Part shown: piece by piece, positions 30,583-34,642 of the stretch
Position numbering within the stretch: position 1 is the stretch's first letter
Layout: each line of letters starts with the position of its first letter
Source: Leucobacter sp. Ag1
GTDB taxonomy: Bacteria > Actinomycetota > Actinomycetes > Actinomycetales > Microbacteriaceae
DNA length: 34,642 bases
Assembly (NCBI RefSeq): GCF_000980875.1
Contig: NZ_LAYO01000075.1
Location: 1 to 34,642, forward strand
Direction of reading: 5' to 3'
Notes under the pieces: model-generated
What the model was told of the DNA's origin: nothing
The model's database searches: none
What the model saw: the letters and a program-made list of their open reading frames with translations, nothing else
Made by a program: the position numbers and the translations under genes

Positions 30583-30603
30583 TCAGAAGTCCCAGTTCTC
30601 GTC
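30583..30603 (-). pseudogene. 3'-terminal remnant of a lost minus-strand gene (ends DENWDF-stop)
   Basis: Read on the minus strand, the last codons before TGA (30585-30583) give DENWDF. The frame stays open upstream to about 30,815 (an ATG at 30720 would give 45 residues), but beyond the last few codons nothing looks like a conserved protein and composition shifts. It lies 40 nt from a terminator suited to convergent genes. Possible sources are the binding-protein gene whose 5' part is cut at about 34,530 on the same strand, or a ribonucleotide reductase small subunit, whose C-terminus often ends in a similar acidic-WDF peptide. Both are guesses. Confidence 0.3.
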
Positions 30604-30773
30604 GGGAAGCACAAGATCTTGCCGTTTCTGCGTCTCCGCAGGCCGTTCATGCCACCTGCGTGCCACTCGCACCGAACCGACTGTTGCACTCGTCGAAGCG
30701 AGGCGTGACACAGCGGACATTGTACTCGTCAAAGGCCCCTCTGCACGAGAAACAGTGAAGCAGTTAGCGGCGA

Positions 30774-31256
30774 GTGTTTGAACTTGAAGCGTTGGATGGA
30801 AAGGACGCGAAGACGGTCAAACACGATGGCTCCACTCAGCGCCTTGCCCGGGCCGCATCTGGTGTCAGGAACGGAAAGATCCAGCGATCCAGCGATTCAG
30901 GGCCTGTCGACACACGGGGACAGATTTGTACATCGATCACGCGGCGGAAGATTACGGACACGGACCGAGCCGAAGCCATTCGGTTATTTCACGCCGGGAC
31001 GTATGTCAAGGACATCGCTAGCAGCCTGCGGGTCACGAAAGCGTCGGTCCGGAAGATCCTGTATGAGGCAGGCGTCGCGGCTCCGCCTCGGAGGATGACG
31101 GAAGCGGAAATCAAAGATGCTGCACGTCGTTACGAGAATGGTGAGTCTCTCGTTCATCTCGGAGAGCGTTTCGGGTGTAGCCCGGGAACAGTGCGGTCCA
31201 AGATTGTGCGCGCTGGAGTGGAGATGCGTCCATCGTCCGTACCGCGGTCGCTTTGA
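30774..31256 (+). CDS. Double helix-turn-helix protein resembling the tail of a recombinase
   Basis: A 160-codon frame with two similar helix-turn-helix units. The first (residues about 61-100) contains AEAIRLFHAGTYVKDIASSL then RVTKASVRKILYEAGV; the second (about 109-148) contains AARRYENGESLVHLGERFGC then SPGTVRSKIVRAGVEMRP. This tandem is typical of the C-terminal DNA-binding part of actinobacterial serine recombinases and of stand-alone HTH proteins. The first 55 residues look non-conserved, no ribosome binding site is seen before the GTG, and no catalytic domain is present upstream, so it may be a decayed recombinase tail or a small regulator whose true start is later. Codon use is more AT-rich than in genes before 30,500. 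Confidence 0.55.
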   Translation: MFELEALDGKDAKTVKHDGSTQRLARAASGVRNGKIQRSSDSGPVDTRGQICTSITRRKITDTDRAEAIRLFHAGTYVKDIASSLRVTKASVRKILYEAGVAAPPRRMTEAEIKDAARRYENGESLVHLGERFGCSPGTVRSKIVRAGVEMRPSSVPRSL

Positions 31257-31308
31257 TATTCATAGTCAGCAACTGCGACCCTCGCGGGTCATGTCGGGCG
31301 GTGGAGGC

Positions 31309-33822
31309 TTACGCCACCAGACCGTTCGCCCAGTGGGCACGGTGCGACTTCGCGATCGCACGGAGGTTCCCACGCATGACCTTGAGTTCTGTTGTGGAAG
31401 GAACATCGTCGTCATGATTGCCAGGGTTCAACACGGTTGAAAACGTGTTCCACTTTCCCTTCTCATCGTTGCTCAGCGCGAAGCCGCGAACAAGCGGCAC
31501 GAGTTGCCCGAGGACGCTTGCTTCCGTCTCGACGTCCGCTACAGAACAGGGTGTGCCTGATTCGGTGCGTGCGGTGGCGATAATCTGCTTCGCAAGCCGT
31601 TCCGCGGCAGAACGGTAGCTGCCACACGCTGCTCTTCTGCCCCGAGCGGTCGGAGCGTTGAGATTGTCTTCCGCGTCGAGCATGAGCTGGCTGAACACGT
31701 CCGAAGTCTGTGTGGGCACGGTGCCTGCTTTAGGGCTTGCAAGGTTGAGCTCATAGGACATAAGTCCACGATGGTCGTGGTAACTCTTGCTCCAGTTCGC
31801 GAGCTTCCCGTCGTAAGTCGTGAGTATGACTTGGACTCCGGCGTCAAGGAGCTTCGTGAGGGTGTTCTGGACGAATGTGAGTCGGTGATCGGGGTCGCTG
31901 CCTGGGATGGGATCGTCGAGGACGATAATGGGTGAGCCCAATAGCTCGGCTCGTGCCAGGAAGATTGAAAGTCCCAGTGCGTTCAGTTGGGAATCGCTGT
32001 ACACCCCGAGCGCGTCTCGTTCGACTGGGGTTGTGCCTGCTTCGGTGTGCAGGGCGGCGATGAGGTTGACGAAACGGTTGCCACTGGCTTTGGATTTCAC
32101 TCCATGGAAGTCGACGAGTTCTTCTGGCCGGATCGTCAGCCACCAGGCCTTGATGGTCTCGCTCATCTCGGTGAAGCGAGCGTCCAGTAACGCTACAGAA
32201 GCTTTCTGCAGTTCTTTCTCTGCCGATCTCACCCGTGTTAGTGCTCTATCTCGTTGCGCCGCGCGGGTGAGGTCCTCACCCAGCCCGGTGACCGCGTCGA
32301 AGAGCCGCAGTAGTTGGCGCTGGTCGGTGATCTCTGCTCGTTGCGTGATCACGGGAGCGACCGCTTGCTCGAGAGCACTGATTGTGACGGCGTACGCCTG
32401 ATGCTTCTGTCGGAGCGAGTGGAGCTTGCTGTCGAGGTCAGCGAAGTCAGGAGCTACTTTTGGTAGCGGTTGCCGTCGCTGGACGGCAGATCTGAGCGCA
32501 ATCAGCGCTTCGCTGGCAGCCTGTGTATCTGGCGTGAGTGAGCGTATGTCAGCTGCAATGCTTCTGGCGCTCGCGTAGCTGTCACGAACAAGATCCGCGT
32601 CGAGTCCCCACGAGTCAAGTTTGGTTGCTAGAGGCGAGATCTCAGACTCGGGTGCGTCCGCAGCTTGCGGTACCCCGGTCGTGATGTAGCGGGTGACAAC
32701 CGTAAGAGCATCCTGGGCACGGTCGATGGCGGCGAGCGTCTCGGCTGCGATCTGATCGAGATTCTTGGCGCTAGCCAGTTCTGCTCGCAACACTTCGATG
32801 CGGGCGGGCGTTAGAGCTTCTGGGGTGGCGCACACAGGACAGTCCACTGGCGCGGTGACGGCGGCGAACTCATCGACCTGGAGCACAGCTGCCAGGATGG
32901 GCTGGAGCCGCGCGACCTCCACGTCGACTGCCGAGAGGACCTCGGCGTACTGTCGTGTATCGGGTGCGACAAGGTCGAGGGTCGATATCGGCTGCGCGCG
33001 CAACCCAGCGATAGGAAAAACGGCTTCGCTCTTCGCGCTCACCCGCGATTCAAGGGCTACCTTGGCGTCAGCGAGTGACGCGTACGAATCGCCGGTGACG
33101 ATCTCGGCTGCATCTCGCAAAGCATCGCTGATGATGGCGTCGAGATCGCTGGGTGATTCCGCTGTCCGTGCGATAGAGCTGAGCCGATTCTGAAGGTCGA
33201 CAAGTTCTTCGGGAAGGGTTGCGATCTGTTGGAGCCAGTGTCCGTCCGGTTCTTGCTCCAAGCGTTTCCGGCCCTCGGCGACTCGCTCTCTGAGAAGGTC
33301 GAGATCGCTGAGCGAGAGAAGAGACTTGAAGTAGGCGACTCTTTGCTTCGGTTCGGTGGAAAGGGCGTGGCGAAGTATGTGTTGCAGGAGGACCGGCGCG
33401 CTCACGGGTGGGTCCGCCAGCGAGAGCCCGATGCTGGACAGGTCCTCCGCTTCGTCGCCATCGATCAGAACTGTGCTGTCGCACTCTGCGCCGCGGCCAA
33501 AATCGCCGGTGAGGTTTCTGCGTGCAGTGTGAAGGGAGCCATCTGCGACCCTGACGACGGCCTCAACGTAGACCTGCTCACCTCCGGTGAGGTGAGCGTT
33601 GCGGAGGCTGTCGTTGTACTCTGCTTTGGCGCCGCCGAGGAGGTCTCTGCGGCTGCTGCGGCCGGATATCAGGAACTCGATCGCTTCCGCGAGGCTGGTC
33701 TTGCCCTGGCTGTTCGCGCCGTGGACGACAGTTACGGGCGCATCGAGTTCGAAGCGCGCGATGTCTGTGCCGAATGCTCGAAATCCTCGCACTTCCAGCG
33801 ATACGATCCTGGCCTGCGTCAT
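31309..33822 (-). CDS. Rad50/SMC-like AAA ATPase with zinc hook, candidate defence protein
   Basis: An 837-residue protein. N-terminal RecF/Rad50-like head: VSLEVRGFRAFG, Walker A GANSQGKT (35-42), then SRRDLLGGAKAEYNDSLRNA. A coiled-coil-rich middle carries the zinc-hook-like CPVC at residues 328-331. The C-terminal head half has the degenerate signature YSDSQLNALGLSIFLARA (from 608) and Walker B PIIVLDDP with Asp636/Asp637. About 140 further residues follow, helical, with RRAACGSYRSAAERLAKQII and LNPGNHDDD (798-806), a shape reminiscent of appended HEPN-like domains, though I cannot confirm it. Similar ATPases occur in defence islands. Its ATG overlaps the stop of the small upstream gene (ATGA), so the two are made together. 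Codon use is lower-GC than the flanking genome. Confidence 0.83.
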   Translation of the reverse strand: MTQARIVSLEVRGFRAFGTDIARFELDAPVTVVHGANSQGKTSLAEAIEFLISGRSSRRDLLGGAKAEYNDSLRNAHLTGGEQVYVEAVVRVADGSLHTARRNLTGDFGRGAECDSTVLIDGDEAEDLSSIGLSLADPPVSAPVLLQHILRHALSTEPKQRVAYFKSLLSLSDLDLLRERVAEGRKRLEQEPDGHWLQQIATLPEELVDLQNRLSSIARTAESPSDLDAIISDALRDAAEIVTGDSYASLADAKVALESRVSAKSEAVFPIAGLRAQPISTLDLVAPDTRQYAEVLSAVDVEVARLQPILAAVLQVDEFAAVTAPVDCPVCATPEALTPARIEVLRAELASAKNLDQIAAETLAAIDRAQDALTVVTRYITTGVPQAADAPESEISPLATKLDSWGLDADLVRDSYASARSIAADIRSLTPDTQAASEALIALRSAVQRRQPLPKVAPDFADLDSKLHSLRQKHQAYAVTISALEQAVAPVITQRAEITDQRQLLRLFDAVTGLGEDLTRAAQRDRALTRVRSAEKELQKASVALLDARFTEMSETIKAWWLTIRPEELVDFHGVKSKASGNRFVNLIAALHTEAGTTPVERDALGVYSDSQLNALGLSIFLARAELLGSPIIVLDDPIPGSDPDHRLTFVQNTLTKLLDAGVQVILTTYDGKLANWSKSYHDHRGLMSYELNLASPKAGTVPTQTSDVFSQLMLDAEDNLNAPTARGRRAACGSYRSAAERLAKQIIATARTESGTPCSVADVETEASVLGQLVPLVRGFALSNDEKGKWNTFSTVLNPGNHDDDVPSTTELKVMRGNLRAIAKSHRAHWANGLVA

Positions 33823-33986
33823 GACGTGCGCCAGGTTTCGATGAGCATGCTGATGGCCGTATCGAGCTCGTCGACCGATGATGCTGCGCTGGCTGCCGCA
33901 ACGATGGCACGAGCATCGTGTTTTGGCTCGGTAACGCCTTGGAGCATCTCAGCCAGAGGCTCAGCGTTGGGCAACAGGTCGGACAT
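33819..33986 (-). CDS. 55-residue partner protein of the SMC-like ATPase
   Basis: A small acidic, helical protein of unknown family starting MSDLLPNAEPLAEMLQG and ending in AISMLIETWRTS; no membrane segment or Cys/His cluster is seen. The start at 33986 is chosen because TAGAAT (33999-33994) ends 7 nt before that ATG, the leaderless spacing seen elsewhere here; an upstream ATG at 34031 lies in front of the -10 box. Its stop overlaps the ATPase ATG by 4 nt, so the pair forms a two-gene operon with fixed stoichiometry. I do not recognise it; a regulator, chaperone or antitoxin-like partner are all open. Confidence 0.65.
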   Translation of the reverse strand: MSDLLPNAEPLAEMLQGVTEPKHDARAIVAAASAASSVDELDTAISMLIETWRTS

Positions 33987-33993
33987 GCTGCCG

Positions 33994-33999
33994 ATTCTA
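33994..33999 (-). promoter_or_regulatory. -10 box of the ATPase operon
   Basis: TAGAAT on the minus strand, one mismatch from TATAAT, ends 7 nt before the ATG at 33986. No convincing -35 is found at 16-18 nt. Confidence 0.5.
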
Positions 34000-34058
34000 C
34001 TGTTCTGTCGGCCTGTAACCATGGGGCTCAAGTCCCTGCATCACACCACGGATGGGAA

Positions 34059-34075
34059 GTATCCTGGATGGATAC
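34059..34075. promoter_or_regulatory. Inverted repeat in the divergent island promoter region
   Basis: GTATCC (34059-34064), TGGAT, GGATAC (34070-34075): a 6-bp perfect inverted repeat lying 17 nt before the DUF3223 ATG and 73 nt from the small-gene start. It could be an operator for the island's HTH protein. A GAGGAGG ribosome binding site follows at 34078-34084. Confidence 0.45.
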
Positions 34076-34091
34076 GTGAGGAGGCCGAGAC

Positions 34092-34610
34092 ATGGGTGTC
34101 GCGAAGCCAGTTATTTTGCCCAGCATGACGTTCCCGACCCGCAAAGCGGCCAAGGATTGGGTTCGGGACGAGATCAAGGATCACTACGACCTCGAAGAGG
34201 TCATCACTGATCCTCTTCATGTTGCGGTGCTCCACGATCTTCTGGACCGTGACGATGATGCGGCCGAAAAAATCGGGGCCGGCATCAAAGAGTTCTTCAT
34301 TAGGCGCACGGCGTTAGGTGGAGGCCATATCCAGTATGTGCGTCGCGACGCACGCGGGATCTGGATCCGCCGTATCGATGGCTCGGAGGATGACTGGAGT
34401 TACACCAGTGCGATCAACCAAGAAGGACTCCAATCGGATGTCAAAGATGCATTACGCGCTGTGATCAACGAAGACCGTCTCTCTTTCAGAGAGCAGGCTT
34501 TCGCCCACGGCCCAGTCCAATGCGCCCGCACCTCCTCGCTGATCTTCCACTCCTTCGCGAGAAGGGGGACGACCTTGCCCGACTGGTCGACGCGCACGAG
34601 GCCCTCGTAG
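34092..34610 (+). CDS. DUF3223 (DCL-homology) protein with a probably chimeric C-terminus
   Basis: The first ~135 residues are a DUF3223/DCL-homology domain: FPTRKAAKDWVRDEIKDHY, ITDPLHVAVLHDLLDRD, EKIGAGIKEFFIRR, then IWIRRIDGSEDDWSYTSAI, where DWSY matches the family's D-F-S-Y block. This domain is named after the plastid DCL protein and occurs in bacteria with unknown, probably nucleic-acid-linked, function. GAGGAGG precedes the ATG. After about residue 145 the frame runs antisense through a truncated binding-protein gene (junction near 34,530), so the last ~25 residues are unlikely to be native. It diverges from the ATPase operon and is codon-wise part of the same island. Confidence 0.65.
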   Translation: MGVAKPVILPSMTFPTRKAAKDWVRDEIKDHYDLEEVITDPLHVAVLHDLLDRDDDAAEKIGAGIKEFFIRRTALGGGHIQYVRRDARGIWIRRIDGSEDDWSYTSAINQEGLQSDVKDALRAVINEDRLSFREQAFAHGPVQCARTSSLIFHSFARRGTTLPDWSTRTRPS

Positions 34611-34642
34611 ACGTTGGTCATGAGCGCCTGCGGGATCGTGGA
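34530..34642 (-). pseudogene. Truncated oligopeptide-type ABC substrate-binding protein gene
   Basis: Entering from the right edge, the minus strand reads STIPQALMTNVYEGLVRVDQ then SGKVVPLLAKEWKISE, which is the N-terminal lobe of a family 5 solute-binding protein (compare the intact one at 15939). After KISE the expected continuation of the type DGLTYTFxLR is missing and the frame runs into island DNA, reaching a stop at 34400. The gene is therefore broken after roughly its first hundred codons; its 5' end lies outside the window. Confidence 0.7.

Follow-up and report, generated by a model that had tools for sequence, protein, structure and literature searches.

The window, i.e. the whole stretch of 34,642 nucleotides from Leucobacter sp. 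Ag1 (NZ_LAYO01000075.1), carries near its end a gene for a large Rad50-like ATPase and, directly upstream, a minute gene. The following features were delimited in this segment.

30797..34236, no strand: exchanged segment, defined by identity to loci L002 and L003
30774..31256, plus strand: ORF with two helix-turn-helix stretches of resolvase type (HTH_7/HTH_23), convergent with the ATPase gene
31309..33822, minus strand: ATPase ORF of 837 codons, Rad50/LmuB-like, with a zinc hook and a C-terminal HEPN-like domain
33819..33986, minus strand: small partner ORF, 55 aa from its ATG (MSDLLPN...W52), upstream of the ATPase
34092..34532, plus strand: divergent DUF3223 gene without its 3' end, whose ORF reads on to 34610 through other sequence

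GC content was 0.587-0.616 in 1-kb windows from 31 to 34 kb as against 0.665-0.759 before 30 kb, and third-position GC was 0.68 in the ATPase gene as against 0.91-0.97 in eight plausible listed genes between 21.7 and 30.5 kb. Positions 30797-34236 matched a record titled Corynebacterium (L002) as one block of 91.7% identity and a record titled Brevibacterium (L003, a MAG) in two pieces of 91.7% and 88.3%. These identities indicate a recent exchange and the segment, found as a single copy in its own genome, is therefore regarded as recently exchanged, horizontally moving DNA. The sequence-only reading had proposed an acquired segment, and both the shift in composition and the identity to L002 bear it out.

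The helix-turn-helix ORF was kept beside the ATPase gene in L002 and L003. It is probably a recombinase remnant and a passenger, and may be a mark of how the segment moved. The DUF3223 gene matched the PADLOC model HamC2 (E 5e-41), but only its first 48 codons had a counterpart in L002 and L003. It was rejected as a component of the system, this piece being present in only those two among the 12 other loci searched, and is probably a passenger as well. As to the end of the window, its terminal 110 nt (34533-34642) recur at 99% identity inside a longer, peptide-binding-protein-like gene on a different contig of the assembly (G000:C26:40136-40245). This end is either chimeric or the junction of a rearrangement.

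The ATPase and its family matches

Residue numbers refer to the ATPase of the window (P0001), in which the following motifs were located.

33697..33720, minus strand: Walker A motif GANSQGKT, residues 35-42
32830..32841, minus strand: zinc-hook motif CPVC, residues 328-331, both cysteines (C328, C331) being present in all 38 aligned members
31981..32001, minus strand: degenerate variant of the ABC signature motif, YSDSQLN, residues 608-614
31909..31929, minus strand: Walker B motif IIVLDDP, residues 632-638, IIVLDD ending at 636-637

All of them had been read from the letters beforehand, as had LNPGNHDDD (residues 798-806), the length of 837 aa, the 55-residue gene and an ATGA overlap between both genes, and each was recovered at the same place. 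A catalytic glutamate is usual in the Walker B motif of ABC ATPases, and P0001 has an aspartate there. The site of the ABC switch histidine is residue 670 (31813-31815). This histidine was replaced by Phe or Tyr in 112 of the 116 readable actinobacterial homologues and the other branch kept it without exception (112 readable members), a pattern hinting at impaired ATP hydrolysis in the actinobacterial branch.

A fold search with the full-length ATPase gave a strong Rad50 match, and PDB sequence searches returned Rad50/SMC/RecF proteins, retron PtuA and coiled-coil chains. The Rad50/SMC-like nature attributed earlier to the protein was thus upheld by fold and profile matches alike. Both branches of the family are joined by a full-length match between P0001 and the ATPase of L010 (residues 5-828, E 1e-28). 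No relative of P0001 was found in the phage and viral DNA collections searched. Additionally, two viral contigs (L034 and L035) encode a distant relative limited to the first ~52 residues (around Walker A) of P0127, a proteobacterial ATPase.

LmuB was the best PADLOC match for all seven ATPases scanned, with E-values for model PDLC03859 from 1e-19 (P0001) up to 7.5e-34 (P0237) and a coverage that ended before the tail. This match raises the question of a Lamassu variant whose LmuA was lost or fused, and in which an LmuB-like ATPase, with the effector moved to its C-terminus, would be accompanied by a miniature LmuC. According to the excerpted text of a review (PMC10586767), Lamassu consists of LmuA, LmuC and LmuB, usually with LmuC as a small 'middle component' beside the ATPase; its effector domains vary, and LmuB, of ~650 aa, is often hooked and generally bears a hydrolysis-impairing Walker B change. 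The small gene just upstream recalls LmuC by analogy, and the aspartate in the place of glutamate (also seen in an RloC control) as well as the missing switch histidine would fit. Against this, LmuA was matched neither by P0002-P0004 nor by the ten neighbour ORFs scanned at L012, L013, L015 and L020, only 0.66 kb of contig being left on the upstream side of the small gene in the window. The partner, of only 55 residues, matched no LmuC model of PADLOC, and LmuB as best match may partly reflect the content of that library. A Lamassu variant is accordingly unlikely, although it is the likeliest of the rivals.

A second rival is a divergent RloC, i.e. a stand-alone, DNA-break-responsive tRNase whose small gene would be a minor accessory or a translational leader. 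In both, a Rad50-like ATPase with a zinc hook precedes a C-terminal RNase triad, the RloC control L023 has the same DDP in Walker B as P0001, and one source names the distant member P0247 'wobble nucleotide-excising tRNase'. Pfam AAA_13 (PF13166) was examined in P0001 and eight other family ATPases. Its cut-off of 36 bits was passed by P0129 (42.2) and P0248 (40.7), but P0001 reached 10 bits (E 0.33), the best stretch in P0129 ended at residue 673, before the tail, and the match lay below the cut-off in P0143, P0172, P0237, P0247 and P0101 and was unlisted for P0009. None of the three actinobacterial ATPases scanned exceeded the cut-off. The spacing of the triad and the conservation of the small gene, given below, make a divergent RloC improbable.

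The C-terminal tail

As a fold search at full length had no power to test the tail, this part was modelled separately. The following features were assigned to it.

31312..31707, minus strand: HEPN-fold domain, residues 706-837 (predicted structure)
31612..31614, minus strand: R737, putative RNase triad (alignment)
31600..31602, minus strand: E741, putative RNase triad (alignment), forming with K745 an Ex3[KR] motif
31414..31416, minus strand: H803, putative RNase triad (alignment), in LNPGNH

From the HEPN-type ranking of the tail model in the fold search, a HEPN fold is predicted. The viral fold library yielded nothing below E 0.5, no listed Pfam, NCBIfam or PADLOC match covered the tail and PDB sequence searches gave no match to it; a search of PDB sequences at E 0.01 with one actinobacterial RloC gave none either.

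Among 37 aligned members with a tail, P0239 with its altered tail being left out, the only fully invariant tail residues were R729, R737, E741, L774 and H803. The arginine and the glutamate of the putative triad were present in 38 of 38 aligned members and the histidine in 37 of 37, with one gap. The triad motif was recovered in 116 of the 120 listed actinobacterial homologues (three were truncated before the tail and one had a G before the His) and in 112 of the 120 listed homologues of the other branch, the remaining eight having truncated or altered ends. The invariance of R, E and H in an otherwise variable tail, together with the HEPN-type ranking, speaks against a DNA-repair ATPase whose helical tail would be structural and not a nuclease. 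The strong Rad50 fold match would suit such a protein, but its rare and patchy occurrence (5/394 genomes of the class) is unlike that of a core repair gene, and this reading is very improbable.

The residues R737-x3-E741...H803 repeat the Arg-x3-Glu...His triad of RloC (R692, E696, H737) and PrrC (R320, E324, H356), and alanine at any of the three positions abolishes RloC activity (PMC2610378, as excerpted). The conserved arginine sits in the second helix of the tail, in the R-x3-E order of RloC and PrrC, whose RNase domains are HEPN domains, and Ex3[KR] is described as an element of such domains (PMC3710099, in part). By contrast, the spacing from Glu to His was 56-62 residues across the 37 members that could be aligned, with 61 for P0001, and is 36-52 in RloC (PMC2610378, in part). 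Alignment of the family tail with six RloC tails by hhalign was weak (0.9%), involving the His loop and the following helix only, and nothing significant (0.07%) was obtained with two tails of the other branch. The HEPN motif Rx4-6H was absent from P0001, which has no Arg 4-6 residues before the invariant His, and membership in HEPN would therefore rest on predicted fold and residues and not on this canonical motif.

The tail is thus predicted to be a HEPN-type RNase and the effector of the system. In the sequence-only reading, either the C-terminal domain was the effector or the small protein was a new kind of partner, and the first option looks right. Its statement that no recognised partner type such as a nuclease was present does not hold, a nuclease-like domain apparently being fused to the ATPase itself.

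The small upstream gene, its distribution and its neighbours

The small ORF and the ATPase gene overlap by 4 nt (ATGA, 33819-33822), and an in-frame TTG upstream of the ATG would yield a product of 70 aa. Upstream of the ATG, a TAGAAT hexamer ends at a distance of 6 nt, and no Shine-Dalgarno sequence was seen. The leaderless start suggested earlier is plausible on these grounds, but a promoter scan found no site.

Two of six RloC controls (six of 11 AAA_13 matches, kept by a Walker-A filter) were likewise preceded by an ORF of 45 aa or more whose end lay close to the ATPase start, and the mere presence of an ORF was therefore discarded in favour of sequence conservation. By that measure the small gene was conserved directly before the ATPase gene in every one of the ten actinobacterial loci with an ATPase 5' end (the window, L002, L003, L012, L013, L014, L015, L020, L022 and L052), which correspond to about eight independent loci since the first three are near-copies. 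L052 was the only held-out locus, being absent from the partner alignment and not duplicating any locus used there, and L051, the same DNA as L003, was left uncounted. ATPase homologues mostly devoid of the small gene, which would have spoken against a pair, were thus not what was observed. The core pattern of the partner was MSxL[L/I]PN...L...L...A...W. The six RloC controls, which come from related genomes, had no sequence of the L[L/I]PN type over the 300 nt preceding the gene or its first 150 nt.

Profile searching with the partner retrieved 43 homologues, of which those named were hypothetical or uncharacterised, one also being called DUF2281. A Pfam scan to E 10 of the latter (P0260, so labelled in UniRef) and nine other partners gave no DUF2281 match and a single SelB-wing match at 0.13. 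Against Pfam, NCBIfam and PADLOC (the last up to E 1), the partner matched nothing save PADLOC DpdD at E 0.01. No profile of these three collections named the pair or the small protein, and the earlier proposal of a candidate undescribed system was not refuted on this point either.

Of the class, 394 genomes were searched with the partner profile and five matched, the same five that harbour the ATPase. As their partner loci are in the profile and match by construction, the informative part of this result is the 0/389 among the other genomes. Divergence of partner and ATPase was correlated over seven loci (r = 0.90; 4 of 5000 permutations as high), and r was 0.69 (46 of 5000) when L002 was omitted. 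Two proteobacterial plasmid relatives have a gene of 65-66 codons overlapping the ATPase start by 29 nt, whose product, at 10-12% identity, bears no recognisable kinship to the actinobacterial partner. The layout is thus common to actinobacterial and proteobacterial plasmid loci, which does not imply a common descent of the partners.

The ATPase family is rare and patchy. In overlapping genome draws it was found in 5/394 genomes of the class, 4/398 of the family and 4/283 of the order of the window, and in 2/401 genomes of another family, one of these being a C-terminal piece. Relatives were carried by plasmids of Bradyrhizobium and Nitrosospira. Thirteen hand-chosen neighbour ORFs were profile-scanned in all. 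Type IIG-like and GmrSD restriction genes flank L020, an integrase and an MmeI-type enzyme flank L015, and L009 adjoins an annotated AbiE pair. No annotated defence gene adjoins L010, and the one neighbour ORF scanned at each of L012 and L013 had no match. A possible enrichment in defence islands is indicated by these neighbourhoods. Some copies are broken: the ATPase of L009 is annotated as two CDSs, and in one genome (L021 4630-7839 and L022 8281-8820) the gene lies in separated pieces near two copies of a transposase-like ORF, presumably of ISL3 type.

The antitoxin of a type II pair is a small protein that neutralises the toxin by binding. A further possible explanation is that the two genes form such a pair, maintaining the mobile segment instead of acting in phage defence. 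The usual order in HEPN-MNT and type II pairs is a small regulator gene first and the toxin second (PMC3710099, as excerpted); here too the small gene comes first, adjoining or overlapping the effector gene. Plasmid-borne relatives, patchy spread and broken ATPase copies (L009, L021) are compatible with addiction. On the other hand, a Rad50-like sensor with a hook would presumably be superfluous for simple addiction, and restriction genes adjoin at two loci. A toxin-antitoxin pair is consequently rather unlikely.

Proposed mechanism and comparison with known systems

Taken together, the two genes probably form a horizontally moving abortive-defence module in which an LmuB-like sensor ATPase is fused to an RloC-like HEPN RNase and accompanied by a minute upstream regulator. 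The pair, its architecture, the predicted HEPN fold, the invariant triad, the co-occurrence and the horizontal transfer were computed; RNase activity, a tRNA target and a DNA trigger we infer, and a defence role is suggested by some neighbours and by family resemblance.

In such a module, the ATPase would dimerise through its CPxC zinc hook and carry the effector at its own C-terminus. At rest, the RNase would be held off by the ATPase heads, by the small protein made first from the same coupled mRNA, or by both. Binding of the heads to DNA ends or unusual DNA structures of phage or plasmid invasion would be the trigger; a change of the heads and/or loss of the small partner might then free or dimerise the HEPN domains, which would cut RNA, most likely tRNA anticodon loops, so that translation and infection stop. 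RloC itself cleaves within the anticodon loop, removing the wobble nucleotide. The least certain part of this explanation is the sign of the partner's effect, silencing or activating: silencing is the leading candidate with slightly less than even confidence, a middle component as in Lamassu, required for sensing or assembly, is possible to a lesser degree, and any other role is doubtful.

How Rad50-like immune ATPases silence a lethal effector is an open question, and the control of LmuA by LmuB and LmuC is called unclear in a 2023 review (PMC10586767, in part). The pair, in which the sensor itself bears the predicted effector and the partner has 55 residues, comes close to the smallest imaginable form of such a circuit, and two genes would suffice to test the question. 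It also illustrates that family scans can miss an effector, the HEPN-like tail and the partner being uncovered by Pfam, NCBIfam and PADLOC. A literature search of open-licence papers found no description of the ATPase/small-gene pair, and the excerpted text of PMC13092281 contains none of the terms 'Rad50', 'SMC' and 'RloC'. The earlier proposal of an undescribed system may hold for the pair but not for the principle, since the nearest architecture is that of RloC, which the proposal itself listed.

HEPN-MNT and other HEPN toxin-antitoxin pairs resemble the present one by a HEPN-fold effector and by the regulator gene coming first. They differ in that the HEPN domain is here fused to a Rad50-like ATPase, and in that the partner, without any Pfam match, is far too small for a nucleotidyltransferase. 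Lamassu (ABC-3C), thought to act by abortive infection (PMC10586767, in part), shares an LmuB-like zinc-hook ATPase, a small gene beside it and possibly poor ATP hydrolysis. However, the predicted effector of the pair is fused to the ATPase C-terminus, and the pair was not assigned to Lamassu because no separate LmuA was found.

RloC and PrrC share with the family an ABC ATPase bearing a C-terminal HEPN RNase domain, predicted in the family, and RloC also shares the Rad50-like ATPase with a CxxC zinc hook. In the excerpted text of PMC3874168, the Rad50-like part of RloC couples the sensing of DNA breaks to the RNase, RloC being internally switched with no external silencing partner, whereas PrrC is silenced by its linked restriction enzyme. 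Unlike both, the family has a conserved partner gene immediately upstream and has lost the switch histidine in most of its actinobacterial branch. It was not assigned to RloC in view of the triad spacing and of the AAA_13 score of P0001; the additional gene also argues against a system of one gene. The pair would work like both RloC and Lamassu. Tentatively, it may even stand for a distinct two-component class of SMC-type immunity bridging them, with the HEPN RNase fused to the sensor, the middle component reduced to a regulator of 55 residues that control would require, and the hydrolysis switch lost in Actinobacteria, leading to a one-shot, partner-dependent activation. In evolutionary terms, the pair is a possible link from RloC-like to Lamassu-like systems.
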